A stretch of 37,759 nt of DNA from a virus (IMGVR_UViG_3300047379_000509:1-37759); one strand, 5' to 3'; positions 16,351-20,924 are shown, counted from the stretch's first letter. Numbers and translations are program-made. The notes: generated by a model from the sequence alone, not told the origin.

Positions 16351-16707
16351 ATGATCAAAGCATTCGCAGTAGCTGTTTCTGGTGTTCTCGCTGGTTCAGC
16401 TGCCTTGGCAGGCCCTTATGTCAACGTGGAGAATAACGGCGGTTATTCTGGCGGTGATTACGCCGGATCTGTCACAGATTTCCACGTTGGTTTTGAAGGT
16501 TCAGACGGCGCTTACGGTTACTACTTGCAGGGCGGCCCAGCCTTGGTTGCTCCTGATGGTGGCGATTCTGAGTTTGAACTGTCCGGCAAAGTTGGCGGAA
16601 ACGTTCAAGTAGCCGAAAGCGTTGGCATTTATGGCGAGCTGAGCTTCATCACTGCAGAAGAGGATCCTTCCATCGGAACCAAGCTTGGCGTGAAGTGGGC
16701 TTTTTGA
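16351..16707 (+). CDS. Secreted beta-barrel-like outer-membrane protein
   Basis: A 118-residue protein with a clear Sec signal peptide: a basic start (MIKA), hydrophobic core (FAVAVSGVLAGSAALA), cleavage expected near ALA-GP at residue 20-21. The mature part is Gly/Tyr/Val-rich with alternating strands (PYVNVENNGGYSGG, VTDFHVGFEGS, YGYYLQGGPALV, KVGGNVQVAESVGIYGELSF) and ends in Phe (GVKWAF), a typical outer-membrane barrel end. It is likely an envelope protein expressed during infection, perhaps modifying the cell surface or excluding other phages. A strong terminator follows. Known from memory as recurring in marine cyanophages. Confidence 0.62.
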   Translation: MIKAFAVAVSGVLAGSAALAGPYVNVENNGGYSGGDYAGSVTDFHVGFEGSDGAYGYYLQGGPALVAPDGGDSEFELSGKVGGNVQVAESVGIYGELSFITAEEDPSIGTKLGVKWAF

Positions 16708-16769: not shown

Positions 16770-16773
16770 CTTG

Positions 16774-17016
16774 ATGCAAAAAGTATTTAATTTGCTCGGG
16801 ACCACAGCCTTTGTTATGTCTGGAGCGATGGTTGTTGGGTCGTTGGTGCTTTACACCCGCATTCCATCGCTGACGAAGTATTACATGAGCGAGCTAAAGC
16901 TTGAGTTAACCAAGGTTGTGACTGACATGATCCCAGCCAAGATTGATGATGTGATGCCTGAATTGCCGTCAGCAACAGGCCCTGTAATCAAGAACGGTTT
17001 GACGGCACCTTTTTAG
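16774..17016 (+). CDS. Membrane-anchored small protein (cyanophage type)
   Basis: An 80-residue protein with one membrane helix at residues about 8-28 (LGTTAFVMSGAMVVGSLVLY) followed by a helical, mostly polar tail (YYMSELKLELTKVVTDMIP, KIDDVMPELPSATGP). ATG 16774 is preferred over TTG 16771. From memory, very similar small proteins occur in marine cyanophages. The tail-to-membrane layout suggests an inner-membrane protein facing the cytoplasm or periplasm. Function unknown; it lies in the lysis region. Confidence 0.6.
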   Translation: MQKVFNLLGTTAFVMSGAMVVGSLVLYTRIPSLTKYYMSELKLELTKVVTDMIPAKIDDVMPELPSATGPVIKNGLTAPF

Positions 17017-17128
17017 GGATATTTGGAACGGATGCCCCTTGGCCACTTGCGTGCAGTGCATCTAAAAGTTCTGCATCATGATGATCTTCGGGCTTAGGAC
17101 GTTGCTTGGCCTTTTGATTTGTGGTCAT
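16988..17128 (-). CDS. Possible small antisense-overlapping ORF
   Basis: A 46-codon ORF on the minus strand starting MTTNQKAKQRPKPEDHHDAE, with amino-acid composition plausible for a small protein (LLDALHASGQ). It starts back to back with the Pro-rich gene (the two ATGs overlap in CATG) and overlaps the 3' end of the preceding plus-strand gene. The 110 bases between those genes would otherwise be empty. Could also be chance. Confidence 0.3.
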   Translation of the reverse strand: MTTNQKAKQRPKPEDHHDAELLDALHASGQGASVPNIPKKVPSNRS

Positions 17129-17900
17129 GGCTGAAATTCCTGAAGTTGGTGTTGGGTCCATTGGTGTTGGGCGTGTTTACGTTCCAGAAATACCAGCCTG
17201 GAGAGGCATCCCACCGCAAAGTATTCCGCAGGAGCCGCCAGTTACGTTAATGCTGGGTTTTCCGGTTGCAGATATACCGGGTTGCGTTGAGACCAGGAAT
17301 ACACAGCCCGGCAACGCAGACGCTTACACCAATGACCCAAAGGGGAACTTTGTTGTTTGCGATGGAACGATGCCAAGTTATGACGCGCTGGATTTTACGC
17401 CTGGGACGTTGACTTATGGGCCAGCTAAGCCGCCAGCTATTGAGGCACCAAAAGAAAAACCGGCTGCCTCGAAACAACCGGCTAAGTCCCCTTCACCGGA
17501 GGCGTCCAACCCAACCGGCATTCCAAATGTAGACACAGAACTGCCATGCCCGCCACCCGATGCAATACCTATTGGCGCTAAAAATAAACAGCAGACTGCG
17601 GTGATTATTGGCTATGAACGGATCGATGGAGAATGCAGAGCACAGCTCGACCCGTTGGACATACCAACGATCATCAGCAATTATTTGCCTGGTGGCCCTG
17701 TTGTGGTCACGACGGCAACGATCGCAGCAGTAGCGACAACAGCAGCCATCTTTGCCAAACCGTTAGGCGATATTCTGCTGAAGGTTGTCAAACCCATCGT
17801 CAAAAAGACGATCAAGAAAATTAAGGAGAAGCTGGAGAAGAAAGTTGTTGTTGAGTCGGCTTGGCAACGCCGGAAGTTTCAGCGGTCTTTAAAGAAGTAG
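17127..17900 (+). CDS. Proline-rich membrane-associated protein
   Basis: A 257-residue protein (ATG 17127; GTG 17121 is possible). The N-terminal part is Pro/Val/Gly-rich (EIPEVGVGSIGVGRVYVPEIP, split by a conserved WRGIPP). It continues with a segment holding two Cys (PGCVETRNTQPGN, FVVCDGTMPSYD), a Pro/Lys-rich linker (about 110-150), ELPCPPPDAIPIG, a hydrophobic helix at about 195-215 (GPVVVTTATIAAVATTAAIF), and a strongly basic coiled tail (VKKTIKKIKEKLEKK). The N-terminal part resembles, from memory, a protein family of marine cyanophages. The last 80 bases overlap antisense with the secreted cassette. Role unknown. Confidence 0.55.
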   Translation: MAEIPEVGVGSIGVGRVYVPEIPAWRGIPPQSIPQEPPVTLMLGFPVADIPGCVETRNTQPGNADAYTNDPKGNFVVCDGTMPSYDALDFTPGTLTYGPAKPPAIEAPKEKPAASKQPAKSPSPEASNPTGIPNVDTELPCPPPDAIPIGAKNKQQTAVIIGYERIDGECRAQLDPLDIPTIISNYLPGGPVVVTTATIAAVATTAAIFAKPLGDILLKVVKPIVKKTIKKIKEKLEKKVVVESAWQRRKFQRSLKK

Positions 17901-18555
17901 GGATTGAATGTGTGTGGGGCGGCAAGACGCCAGGCGGGTTAGTCAGGACAACATCAGCACAGATTGACGCATAGGGGCTCTTCGGATGAAACATGATGCC
18001 TTCTTTCATCAAGCCAGCGCAATTTTTAAGCCTTGCAATTTCGTAGTTCAGTCTTTTATCGGCGAGGGTTGCATCTAGAAGTGCCACCTGTTTTTCGGCG
18101 GCTTTGCGACAAGTTCGTACGTGATGACGATCCAGCGGTATCGAAATCGTGGCAGTGATGCCGCCGTTAATCGATAGGTTGGTTTTTTGTCCTGTTCTAA
18201 TTGGCTTGTAAAAAAGGACATCGCCCGGATTGTCTGGTCTGCCATCTGGGACAGGATTGCCTTCTGGGTCAAACGCGCCAACAACATCGATCGTGTCATA
18301 TACAGGTTCGTTGTAGTGGCTTTCGTAGGGTTGTGCCCAGCCTGTTGTTGTACTTATGAAAGGGTTGATGCTTAGCGTTGCACCTTGGCAGCTAATCCCA
18401 CCGCCGTAAGTATTAGTGAACTGTCTTGCTGGTACTACCTGAACAGCTTGGTTGGTGACTGATCCTGAGCTGTTGGCTACTGGAGCGGCAGTGCTTGAGA
18501 CCTGTGCTTGTGCTGGAGCGGCTAGCAGCAAAAGCGTTGCGATAACTCGCTTCAT
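17821..18555 (-). CDS. Secreted protein 4 of the coupled cassette
   Basis: A 244-residue protein with a clear signal peptide (MKRVIATLLLLAAPAQAQ; cleavage near residue 17). The mature protein has an extended Thr/Asn/Gly-rich N-terminal half (FTNTYGGGISCQGATLSI), then a strand-rich part (TNLSINGGITATISIPLDRHH) and a helical C-terminal domain (AAEKQVALLDATLADKRLNYE) followed by NCAGLMKEGIMFHPKSPYAS and ICADVVLTNPPG. Four Cys could form disulphides in the periplasm. The C-terminal domain resembles one in cyanophage hypothetical proteins (memory). Start overlaps the upstream stop by ATGA; last 80 bases overlap the convergent plus-strand gene. Confidence 0.62.
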   Translation of the reverse strand: MKRVIATLLLLAAPAQAQVSSTAAPVANSSGSVTNQAVQVVPARQFTNTYGGGISCQGATLSINPFISTTTGWAQPYESHYNEPVYDTIDVVGAFDPEGNPVPDGRPDNPGDVLFYKPIRTGQKTNLSINGGITATISIPLDRHHVRTCRKAAEKQVALLDATLADKRLNYEIARLKNCAGLMKEGIMFHPKSPYASICADVVLTNPPGVLPPHTHSIPTSLKTAETSGVAKPTQQQLSSPASP

Positions 18556-18974
18556 TGACTAAAGGTGCTTGTCGTCTCTGTTAAAGATTCAATGTCTGTT
18601 TCTCTGTTAATCAGGGTGTGGTTTGTGAGCCCTGGCCCTTGAAGCGTTTCGACGAACTGAAATGATGCACCTTGGTTGACGATGTTCCAAGTAGGTTTGC
18701 TAGCAGGGTCAAGACCAGTCCAACGACTAGAAACGCCATTGAGAGTGTTTGTTGTTGTGGTCAGACTAGCTGGAGCAATGCTGCCACCAACTGGAGCGAT
18801 ATTAGTTCCGCTTGCGCTGTACTCATATCCTGTCCTGTATTCGTATGAGTTGATAACCTCAGTAACTTTTGTTTTGGTGCGTGTCGTGGAAGACAGCACC
18901 CCTTGCTGAAAATTTGGCACTACAGGAATTGCTGCAGCTGGAGCAGCCAAAAGCAACAACAGCAAGATTTTCAT
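18552..18974 (-). CDS. Secreted protein 3 of the coupled cassette
   Basis: A 140-residue protein with a short, very hydrophobic signal peptide (MKILLLLLLAAPAAA). The mature part is Ser/Thr/Asn-rich and beta-prone (QQGVLSSTTRTKTKVTEVIN, YEYRTGYEYSASG, WNIVNQGASFQFVETLQG) with no Cys. It may be an extracellular or periplasmic partner of its neighbours. Overlaps both neighbours by 4 bases (ATGA), which implies fixed stoichiometry by translational coupling. No known motif. Confidence 0.58.
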   Translation of the reverse strand: MKILLLLLLAAPAAAIPVVPNFQQGVLSSTTRTKTKVTEVINSYEYRTGYEYSASGTNIAPVGGSIAPASLTTTTNTLNGVSSRWTGLDPASKPTWNIVNQGASFQFVETLQGPGLTNHTLINRETDIESLTETTSTFSQ

Positions 18975-19468
18975 CTAATAGTTAGCTCTTGAATGACTTG
19001 ACCAATTGCAGTAGTACCAGCGCCACCAGCAGTGATTGTGAGTGCCCCGTCTGTTGCAATTGTTCCAGCCAAAGTGCCTGCAACCCCACCTGAAGTCGTG
19101 GTGTTACTGCCAAAGATTGGCATAGCAGGGACTACACCAGCGGTGACAGTTGTTGAAAGTACGGTTGGAACGTCGTCACCTTCTATGTATGACTCTGAAT
19201 ACGAAAAGCTGTCACCAGCAGTAGTAATACTGTAGTCACCAGGAGTGTACCCAAGAGCAGTGCCGGAAGTAAGTGTCCCCAAAGTAGGAGCAGTACCCAA
19301 AGTGACGTTAGAGCCAGATACTGCCATTGTGCTCGGCAAACGCGTTGAGATTGATCCCGCACCATCAACAGTCAGAGAGATTGAAGATTTAATAGCGTGC
19401 GTAATGTCTGCCGAAGCAGGACTTATCGCAAAGAATGTTAGGCACGATACAAAGAGAAAACGTCTCAT
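18971..19468 (-). CDS. Secreted protein 2 of the coupled cassette
   Basis: A 165-residue protein with an N-terminal signal peptide (MRRFLFVSCLTFFAISPASA). The mature protein is rich in Gly, Thr, Ser and Val (TLGTLTSGTALGYTPGDYS, VLSTTVTAGVVPA, GTLAGTIATDGALTITAGG). This is an adhesin-like or beta-helix-like composition, ending with a conserved-looking IGQVIQELTIR. Not a classical cellular enzyme; likely a secreted structural component. It overlaps by ATGA with its neighbours in the cassette. Confidence 0.58.
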   Translation of the reverse strand: MRRFLFVSCLTFFAISPASADITHAIKSSISLTVDGAGSISTRLPSTMAVSGSNVTLGTAPTLGTLTSGTALGYTPGDYSITTAGDSFSYSESYIEGDDVPTVLSTTVTAGVVPAMPIFGSNTTTSGGVAGTLAGTIATDGALTITAGGAGTTAIGQVIQELTIR

Positions 19469-19728
19469 TTGGGTTTGGACGTAGGGGTTTCTTCCTTAAG
19501 TGTAGGCTGCTCTTTCTTCTTTTTATTGTTGCCAACGGCTAGGCCAAACGACGCTGCCGTTCCAGAAAGAATTGAGGCTGGGTAGGTCGGATCAAGCGAC
19601 TGCTTGAAGACGCCAAGGTAATTTGCAGTCAGGATTGCCATTGCCCAAGCAAGCAACACAACCTTGATTACATCGCCTAGACGTGAGTTGTCCTGTTCTT
19701 GCTCTTGCTTAGCCTGTTCTTCTGCCAT
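19465..19728 (-). CDS. Membrane protein 1 of the coupled cassette
   Basis: An 87-residue protein with an N-terminal acidic helix (AEEQAKQEQEQDNSRLG), two hydrophobic segments (IKVVLLAWAMAILTANYLG and PASILSGTAASFGLAVG) and a basic C-terminus (NNKKKKEQPTLKEETP). It is the first gene of the cassette and overlaps the second by ATGA. Small two-helix proteins like this could be an anchor or a holin-like pore for the downstream secreted proteins. There are only 23 bp to the divergent gene at 19752, so its promoter must lie inside that gene. Confidence 0.58.
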   Translation of the reverse strand: MAEEQAKQEQEQDNSRLGDVIKVVLLAWAMAILTANYLGVFKQSLDPTYPASILSGTAASFGLAVGNNKKKKEQPTLKEETPTSKPK

Positions 19729-19751: not shown

Positions 19752-20006
19752 ATGGTGGTTGAAATCTGGGCTGCTGTTGCTGGTGCGTCAATAGGCGTGG
19801 CCGCTTCTGGCATCAAAGGCGCCAACCGCGATAACCAGCATGGAAGGGATTCGTTGGTACGTCTGACTTCAGCTGTCGATAATTTAGCGTCACGAATGGA
19901 TGTGCTCCATGCAGATCTGAGGGTTAGGGATCAGGAGCTATTCGCTCGAATCTCAGACCTAGAGCAGAATGTTGCACGACTGGAAGGCCACGCTAATCGG
20001 ACTTAG
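19752..20006 (+). CDS. Holin-like protein with N-terminal membrane helix and coiled coil
   Basis: An 84-residue protein: hydrophobic segment at residues 3-20 (VEIWAAVAGASIGVAASGI), then a coiled coil (SLVRLTSAVDNLASRMDVLHADLRVR split in heptads) and an acidic/basic C-terminus (LEQNVARLEGHANRT). Hydrophobic and coiled parts together resemble the XhlA or rz-like proteins that join holins. Position just upstream of the putative endolysin gene supports a lysis role. Divergent to the secreted cassette. Assignment is by architecture only. Confidence 0.45.
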   Translation: MVVEIWAAVAGASIGVAASGIKGANRDNQHGRDSLVRLTSAVDNLASRMDVLHADLRVRDQELFARISDLEQNVARLEGHANRT

Positions 20007-20030: not shown

Positions 20031-20204
20031 ATGGTTTTACTTCTAAAGCCAATTCTGTTTAGCTTCATCAAATCAAAAGCCGTAAAACAGTTGCTGTTGG
20101 ATTGTCTGATCAAAATCAGCGAGCAAACGGACAACCAATTGGACGATGTGGCCTGTAAGTATGTGCAGGACTTACTGTTCCCGGATGGTCGCGTTGAAAA
20201 GTAA
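20031..20204 (+). CDS. Small membrane-active protein, possible holin
   Basis: A 57-residue ORF. The N-terminus is hydrophobic (MVLLLKPILFSFIKSKAVKQ) and continues as a helix LLLDCLIKISEQTDNQLDD with a short polar end. From memory, very similar small proteins (…SKAVKQL…DLL.KL…TDN…DD) recur in marine cyanophages. Its stop (20202-20204) directly abuts the start of the C39-like peptidase gene (20205). Amphipathic hydrophobic helices with charged end and location next to the candidate endolysin suggest a holin or antiholin, not proven. Confidence 0.55.
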   Translation: MVLLLKPILFSFIKSKAVKQLLLDCLIKISEQTDNQLDDVACKYVQDLLFPDGRVEK

Positions 20205-20924
20205 ATGTGGCTTTGGGTCGTAATCATTGTGGGCTTATCACTCCTCCCGTTCTTTCAGTTCTTTAAAAAAGGCGATCCTCACCAGCTAGCTGCGATTGCG
20301 GAGCTGGAGAAATCTATTGATCAAGACCTCCTAAGTGATGAGGCTGAATGGTTTGAGATGTGGAAGACCAGCGGCATTCACCAAGAGGTTTATGGCGTTC
20401 CGTATTACAACCAAATGGATAGCCTCACTGGCTATGGCTATAGGGAATGCTTTGATGCAGCAGCTGCAATGGTTGTAGCGTTCCACCATGGGATAAGAAG
20501 CCAAGACGCTTATCGGCATGTACGCCGAAAGTTTGGTGATACGACAGCAGTTCATGCCCAAGTTTCTGCGTTGAGATCACTTGGCTTAGACGCTCAGTTC
20601 CGCAGGGATGCCAGAGTTGAGGACATTGAGATTGAGATTGATGCTGGCAGGCCAATCATGGTTGGTTGGCTGCATAAAGGTGATCTAACTAAAGGCAAAC
20701 CAGCAGTGTGTGATAGCGAGGGCTGTGGTCATTGGAGCGTAATCATTGGCTACGACAAAGACGACTTCATTGCCATGGATCCAATGGGTAAGCCAGACAT
20801 GGAGCATGGCGGCCATGACACCACAAAATCTGGTGAGTTGATCAGGATGTCGCGTCCCGCCTTTTACCAGCGTTGGTCAATAGAAGGAGAAGCAAGCGGC
20901 TGGGCTGTATTTGTGGATCGATGA
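20205..20924 (+). CDS. Membrane-anchored C39-like cysteine peptidase, putative endolysin
   Basis: A 239-residue protein. Residues 2-20 form a hydrophobic anchor (WLWVVIIVGLSLLPFFQFF), a signal-arrest-release-like or uncleaved anchor. The rest matches a papain-like C39 peptidase domain: VPYYNQMDS with Gln70, then YGYRECFDAAAAMV with the putative nucleophile Cys82, SEGCGHWSVIIGYD with His176 and FIAMDPMG with Asp192. These could form the Q-C-H-D active site. Such domains in phages cut peptide cross-links of cell walls, so endolysin is the likely job. Starts at the stop of the small membrane protein and overlaps the next ORF by ATGA. Substrate not determined. Confidence 0.68.
   Translation: MWLWVVIIVGLSLLPFFQFFKKGDPHQLAAIAELEKSIDQDLLSDEAEWFEMWKTSGIHQEVYGVPYYNQMDSLTGYGYRECFDAAAAMVVAFHHGIRSQDAYRHVRRKFGDTTAVHAQVSALRSLGLDAQFRRDARVEDIEIEIDAGRPIMVGWLHKGDLTKGKPAVCDSEGCGHWSVIIGYDKDDFIAMDPMGKPDMEHGGHDTTKSGELIRMSRPAFYQRWSIEGEASGWAVFVDR

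Follow-up and report, generated by a model that had tools for sequence, protein, structure and literature searches.

A conserved, probably late and envelope-directed gene cassette of marine cyanophages with a possible role in lysis or egress

The window, i.e., the whole stretch of DNA that was analysed, is a 37.8-kb virus record whose major capsid protein relates it to the tailed cyanophages S-2L, KBS-S-2A, S-H1 and MED4-184/P-HS2 (Prochlorococcus MED4). Four minus-strand genes, here termed P4, P3, P2 and P1, are present at positions 17821-19728 and overlap at every junction by the four nucleotides ATGA, as the original prediction from the window sequence had described. The plus-strand phage genes that it placed on both sides are also real, with the OMP barrel, 'plasmid stability' (PS) and A164 genes on one side and the genes of a TM-coiled-coil protein, a 57-aa protein and a C39 peptidase on the other:

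Phage_OMP, 16351-16707, plus strand: secreted predicted beta barrel, PF24653/phrog_417; neighbour in siphovirus-type loci.
PS, 16771-17016, plus strand: 81 aa, N-terminal TM and short C-terminal tail; phrog_568 'plasmid stability' (T4-GC 414); accessory.
A164, 17121-17900, plus strand: converging gene, phrog_570 (Syn9 gp164, T4-GC 234); Pro-rich with Cys, C-terminal TM, basic tail; universal core.
P1, 17821-18555, minus strand: 244 aa, secreted; phrog_848 (T4-GC 235); four invariant Cys, long C-terminal helix.
P2, 18552-18974, minus strand: 140 aa, secreted; DUF6322/phrog_650 (T4-GC 236); AF2 model all-beta.
P3, 18971-19468, minus strand: 165 aa, secreted, Ser/Thr/Gly-rich; phrog_564 (T4-GC 237); accessory, missing from T7-like carriers.
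P4, 19465-19728, minus strand: 87 aa, two hydrophobic segments, charged C-terminus; DUF6450/phrog_721; holin-like size and layout.
TM-coiled-coil protein, 19752-20006, plus strand: phrog_26178; first gene of the adjoining putative lysis cluster; homologue in the cassette-free KBS-S-2A.
57-aa hydrophobic protein, 20031-20204, plus strand: phrog_2738; homologue of Syn5 gp48.
C39-type peptidase, 20205-20924, plus strand: N-terminal TM; likely endolysin; phrog_10051.

Regarding export, the N-termini of P3, P2 and P1 are hydrophobic and have an AxA-like site, and the three signal peptides that had been predicted persist as signal-like N-termini in relatives, a hydrophobic core (scored by a simple heuristic, not by SignalP) being detected in 129/129 P3, 144/145 P2 and 137/149 P1 relatives. 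Those P1 relatives without the core that were listed belong to annotated T4-like, T7-like, S-SKS1, S-TIM5 and MED4-184 records, and the T4-like and T7-like exceptions have a signal-like segment at a more upstream position, within the P2 gene. In annotated records of these two groups the P1 reading frame, which differs from that of P2, is already open about 30-140 codons ahead of the P2 stop; in P-SSP7 the likely core of the P1 signal peptide, LYYYFALCILSVSPVLA, straddles the P2 stop, and the same is found in other annotated T4-like and T7-like records. The P1 start in these phages is putative, some records (e.g., P-SSP7) beginning P1 downstream of the signal-like segment. Window-like phages differ in that P1 carries a short signal of its own, located at the ATGA junction. 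In about half of the P2 relatives (L038, L039, L047-L053 and others) a basic n-region is missing and no basic residue precedes the hydrophobic start, e.g., MMWTGIWITWGVLCVIALAAPEAKS, which is odd for a Sec signal; this stretch might be a membrane anchor.

The two-helix character claimed for P4 was borne out by hydropathy, with two hydrophobic segments in the window protein and in 246/263 relatives, which also have conserved alignment columns. Similarly, the four cysteines and helical C-terminal domain described for P1 were recovered: its AF2 model is of low confidence (pLDDT 68) except for one long helix (mature residues 126-167), which bears the invariant C132 and C162. P2 is modelled as all-beta (pLDDT 84, pTM 0.47), two of its strands being 24-25 residues long. 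Searching the PDB with the P2 and P1 models gave no significant match; P2 had weak, non-significant Foldseek matches to collar proteins of phages (E 3e-3 and 5e-2) and weak ones to beta-hairpin pores (E 0.1 and above), which are not taken as evidence of function. Confident matches in BFVD were cyanophage relatives only, and a sequence search of solved structures detected no relative. P-SSP7 P2 (L006:8222-8584) and the T7 o-spanin gp18.7 (L314:3033-3284) both end in VFSQ-stop, a likeness of four residues noted post hoc and possibly due to chance. The N-terminal region of A164 is rich in Pro and, in siphovirus-type and T4-like members, contains conserved Cys; a C-terminal TM and a basic tail follow. 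No signal peptide was found in A164, although by the positive-inside rule its N-terminus would be periplasmic. The four minus-strand families match PHROGs 848, 650, 564 and 721 (E 1e-16 to 1e-88), and in Pfam, PHROGs and NCBIfam P1-P4 and A164 match families of unknown function only, with no homology to any lysis protein.

Homologues of P1, P2 or P4 are carried by about 410-440 phage records, compared with some 460-470 cyanophage records that match S-PM2 gp23 at the cutoff used, and all P1 matches come from cyanophage, marine-virus or uncultured marine phage records. The cassette had been described as unusual for a phage and as an insertion; such a private or unusual insertion is rejected by these numbers, the cassette being not unusual among marine cyanophages and already noted in 2010 (PMC3037559). 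On the host side, 17 P1 relatives were found among 84,980 genomes, on contigs reading as viral or admixed, and a cellular origin was rejected accordingly. Profile searches identified T4-like, T7-like, S-TIM5-like and siphovirus-type marine cyanophages as carriers. The families cluster in relatives rather than occurring apart from each other: in 18/18 whole records P1 and P2 are either both present (13) or both absent (Syn5, S-PM2, P-SS2, S-CBS4 and T7). The cassette is optional in some cyanophages, as Syn5, P60 and KBS-S-2A do without it. In Syn9 the homologues are gp167 (P3), gp166 (P2), gp165 (P1), gp164 (A164), gp162 (PS) and gp161 (P4), and gp42 of P-SSP7 is a homologue of A164.

Three layouts were found. 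In siphovirus-type phages (the window, MED4-184 and most window-like IMG/VR loci) and the podovirus MedDCM-OCT-S37-C6, the genes P4, P3, P2 and P1 are read in this order towards the oppositely oriented A164, PS and, in parts of this group, OMP genes. In T4-like phages, S-TIM5 and S-SKS1 the arm P3, P2, P1 meets the opposing A164, followed on the same strand by PS and P4 where these were detected. T7-like phages (P-SSP7, P-SSP3, P-SSP10, S-TIP37, KBS-P-1A and others) have P4, P2 and P1 in one direction and no P3, the order A164, P4, P2, P1 being present in 69/80 T7-like IMG/VR loci. As A164, P4, P2 and P1 are common to all three layouts, they are regarded as the core, while P3 is dispensable and missing from the T7-like carriers seen. 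The C39 peptidase was rejected as a constant partner, being missing from the T4-like and T7-like carriers tested. The suggestion that the four minus-strand products act together thus stands insofar as they look like one envelope-aimed functional unit, but its membership requires revision, with A164 brought into the core and P3 left outside it.

Regarding the junctions, a 4-nt overlap was found between P4 and P3 in 129/129 relatives, between P3 and P2 in 98/139 (with a 1-nt overlap in 28 more) and between P2 and P1 in 131/152 scored junctions. The fixed coupling that had been proposed does not hold throughout: tight ATGA coupling is lineage-specific, T4-like phages carrying P4 on the other arm and P1 opening deep inside P2 in T4-like and T7-like phages. 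At their 3' ends P1 and A164 overlap antisense by 80 nt in the window (17821-17900); tail-to-tail overlaps of 15 to 107 nt are present in the annotations of Syn9, Syn1, S-TIM5, S-SKS1 and MedDCM-OCT-S37-C6 and were not seen in those of S-SM1 or MED4-184.

The window block belongs to a cassette reported in T4-like cyanophages as an uncharacterised 'mobile hypothetical gene cluster' of T4-GCs 218, 219, 234, 235 and 237 plus plasmid stability (Sullivan et al., 2010; PMC3037559). Profile HMMs of the window genes match the annotated GC genes in Syn1 and S-SM1, with homologues of GC 218, 234, 235 and 237 clustered with the plasmid stability protein. Shared with that cluster are a P4-type gene, A164 (GC 234), P1 (GC 235), P2 (GC 236), P3 (GC 237) and PS (GC 414), as well as the convergence of P1 and A164, and in the window the OMP barrel gene stands near the position of GC 219. 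The window differs in having P4 within one ATGA-coupled operon with P3, P2 and P1, and in being a siphovirus-type phage in which the cassette adjoins a lysis cluster; the present analysis also found the cassette in T7-like, S-TIM5-like and siphovirus-type carriers. In the literature searched, no proposed function for the cassette was found, nor anything specific about DUF6322, about holins or spanins among these genes, or about when they are transcribed, and the cryo-EM paper on P-SCSP1u gives no virion proteomics.

The late-promoter motif TAAATA was detected, mostly 20-39 nt upstream of the start codon, before the P3 arm in 54/60 unique leaders of T4-like relatives (shuffled mean 9.4, reverse complement 28) and before the P4 arm in 49/53 (shuffled mean 6.3, reverse complement 6). 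As controls, TAAATA occurs within 70 nt of 12/19 structural genes vs 4/30 replication/middle genes. With the motif before both arms and these controls, late timing of the cassette in T4-like relatives is well supported at the level of promoter sequence; for the window phage itself we infer it.

Comparison of genomic positions revealed that the cassette and lysis genes can replace each other. Syn1 carries the cassette downstream of nrdA-nrdB-RusA; S-PM2, which lacks P1 and P2, has after RusA genes for a C39 peptidase, a protein with a lysozyme domain (PF00959), an RlpA-type protein and a lipobox protein. This S-PM2 group thus has the same neighbour, RusA after nrdA-nrdB, as the Syn1 cassette, and S-PM2 RusA has the same late motif upstream, whereas its genes encode peptidoglycan-active enzyme families and a lipobox protein and include no cassette family. 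The start of the S-PM2 'putative lysin' S-PM2p157 (L316:16254-16718) seems to be annotated too short, the upstream frame holding the rest of PF00959. As a marker, T4-type lysozyme (PF00959) was uninformative, since it matched S-PM2 and one 925-aa S-SM1 ORF only. In T7-like carriers the cassette lies between the tail fibre and small terminase genes, a slot that elsewhere holds a GH19-type endolysin and a TM-coiled-coil gene (P60), a TM-coiled-coil gene and the 57-aa family (Syn5) or the holin (T7). In the window the cassette adjoins the TM-coiled-coil, 57-aa protein and C39 peptidase genes, and KBS-S-2A has kept the TM-coiled-coil and endolysin genes without the cassette. Strict exclusion between the cassette and the TM-coiled-coil gene was rejected, S-TIP37 carrying both, and in Syn9 and S-SM1 the cassette lies between regA and hsp20, which is not a lysis slot.

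All core products are signal-like or have TM segments, and the cassette looks late in T4-like phages, is nearly absent from host genomes and is common to phages with unrelated tails and the same hosts, which speaks for action at the host envelope and against a virion role. In a published survey, spanins were not found in Syn9, Syn1, Syn33, S-SM1, P-SSP7 and related phages, and it was supposed that the outer membrane may simply be fragile (PMC6139136). Given the lysis-type slots and this published absence of spanins, lysis or outer-membrane egress, one of several roles listed in the original prediction, is the best single guess, although homology to lysis proteins is lacking. We put the probability that the cassette is a late module spanning the envelope and serving, most likely, lysis or egress at roughly one half.

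The cassette would then be one half of a late envelope-spanning module confined to phages of marine picocyanobacteria, with A164 and P4 in the inner membrane, the exported P2 and P1 in the periplasm or outer membrane, and P3, PS and the OMP barrel as accessories. P4 would act as a holin-like inner-membrane protein, A164, anchored by its C-terminal TM, would hold its Pro-rich segment on the periplasmic side, and P2 and P1, a secreted pair that may form a complex with them, would breach or disconnect the outer membrane, perhaps via oligomerised P2 beta hairpins, so that the module would complete lysis by doing the job of spanins in phages without recognised ones. In its most specific form, A164-P4-P2-P1 being an unrecognised, non-lipoprotein machine for outer-membrane disruption or egress that replaces spanins (possibly also the holin) in most marine picocyanophages of T4-like, T7-like and siphovirus type, this proposal is tentative and somewhat more likely to be wrong than right. 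Lysis of Prochlorococcus and Synechococcus by phages moves a large amount of carbon in the ocean, and the carriers infect the ocean's most abundant photosynthetic bacteria; the cassette may be their way out of the cell, and a conserved, probably late, envelope-directed module that occupies lysis slots, with lysis genes in its place in some phages, is a testable candidate for the outer-membrane step in cyanophages without recognised spanins.

In two-component spanins the o-spanin is an outer-membrane lipoprotein with a lipobox and the i-spanin has an N-terminal TM and a periplasmic coiled coil. The cassette resembles such pairs (Rz/Rz1; T7 gp18.5/18.7) in being envelope-directed, in its position near terminase genes in T7-like phages and in the gene nesting, P1 of T4-like and T7-like phages opening out of frame inside P2 as Rz1 is embedded in Rz, with a 4-nt overlap in the window. 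It differs in having no lipobox, no inner-membrane coiled-coil partner among P1 and P2 and no sequence similarity, and none of P1-P4 fits an i-spanin. As a lipobox was detected in 0/129 P3, 0/145 P2 and 0/149 P1 N-termini of relatives, P1-P3 are not spanins. P4 resembles the class II holin gp17.5 of T7 in its small size, its two hydrophobic segments, its charged tail and, in T7-like cyanophages, its gene position between tail fibre and small terminase; however, none of 23 members has a Pfam holin match (DUF6450 only, 23/23), so that judged by sequence P4 is not a holin by homology and its holin-like activity is putative.

Several observations speak against the lysis reading. Besides the lack of lysis-protein homology and of a significant structural match, Syn5, P60 and KBS-S-2A manage without the cassette, the S-PM2 replacement genes include peptidoglycan enzymes, which represent a different lysis step, and the window and MED4-184 already own a separate lysis-type cluster or its 57-aa gene. 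The co-occurrence in S-TIP37, the regA-hsp20 position in Syn9 and S-SM1 and the supposed periplasmic domain of A164 without a signal peptide also count against it, and late expression fits virion or surface roles too. The cassette could serve late remodelling of the host surface (superinfection exclusion, receptor masking or keeping released virions off debris) instead of lysis, as might be expected from several exported proteins joined by an OMP barrel in siphovirus-type loci, from a module that is optional in some cyanophages and common to phages with the same hosts and different tails, and from the other lysis-type genes adjoining it in the window. Exclusion genes usually act early, however, whereas T4-like relatives have the late-promoter motif, and the repeated lysis-type slots and the S-PM2 replacement would be left unexplained; we regard surface remodelling as unlikely.

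That P1-P3 are virion components, e.g., secreted fibres or decorations binding particles at release, or minor tail proteins, appears very unlikely. The late motif, the position after tail genes in the window and in T7-like phages, the Ser/Thr/Gly-rich P3 and the weak, non-significant collar matches of P2 would suit such a role, but signal-like N-termini are out of place for cytoplasmically assembled virions, one module serves phages with unrelated tails, no relative was detected among solved structures, and the cassette genes carry no structural label in the records of S-TIM5 and S-SM1, where other proteins do. Least probable among the readings weighed is an auxiliary function, with the exported proteins acting on host physiology in the thylakoid lumen or periplasm and not in egress. 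In its favour, Sec signals of cyanobacteria can direct proteins to either the periplasm or the thylakoid lumen, carriers of the cassette are marine cyanophages only, and P1 has four invariant Cys; against this, no similarity to host proteins was found, the 17 P1 relatives in host genomes lying on viral or admixed contigs, and the lysis-type slots are again not accounted for.

Regarding the neighbouring genes of the window, the TM-coiled-coil protein (19752-20006) could fit the i-spanin pattern, and it has a weak PHROG match to an Rz-like spanin (E 0.13). PS (16771-17016) is short, with a TM segment at its N-terminus and a conserved tail, MPELP..TGP; the name 'plasmid stability' of phrog_568 fits it poorly, and these features make the 2010 idea that PS mobilises the cassette doubtful. 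The phrog_2738 57-aa family, with a holin or a small virion protein as possible identities, is present in the window (20031-20204), Syn5 (gp48), MED4-184 and T7-like cyanophages, including an ORF of P-SSP7 (L006:9029-9187) that matches phrog_2738 and carries no annotation.
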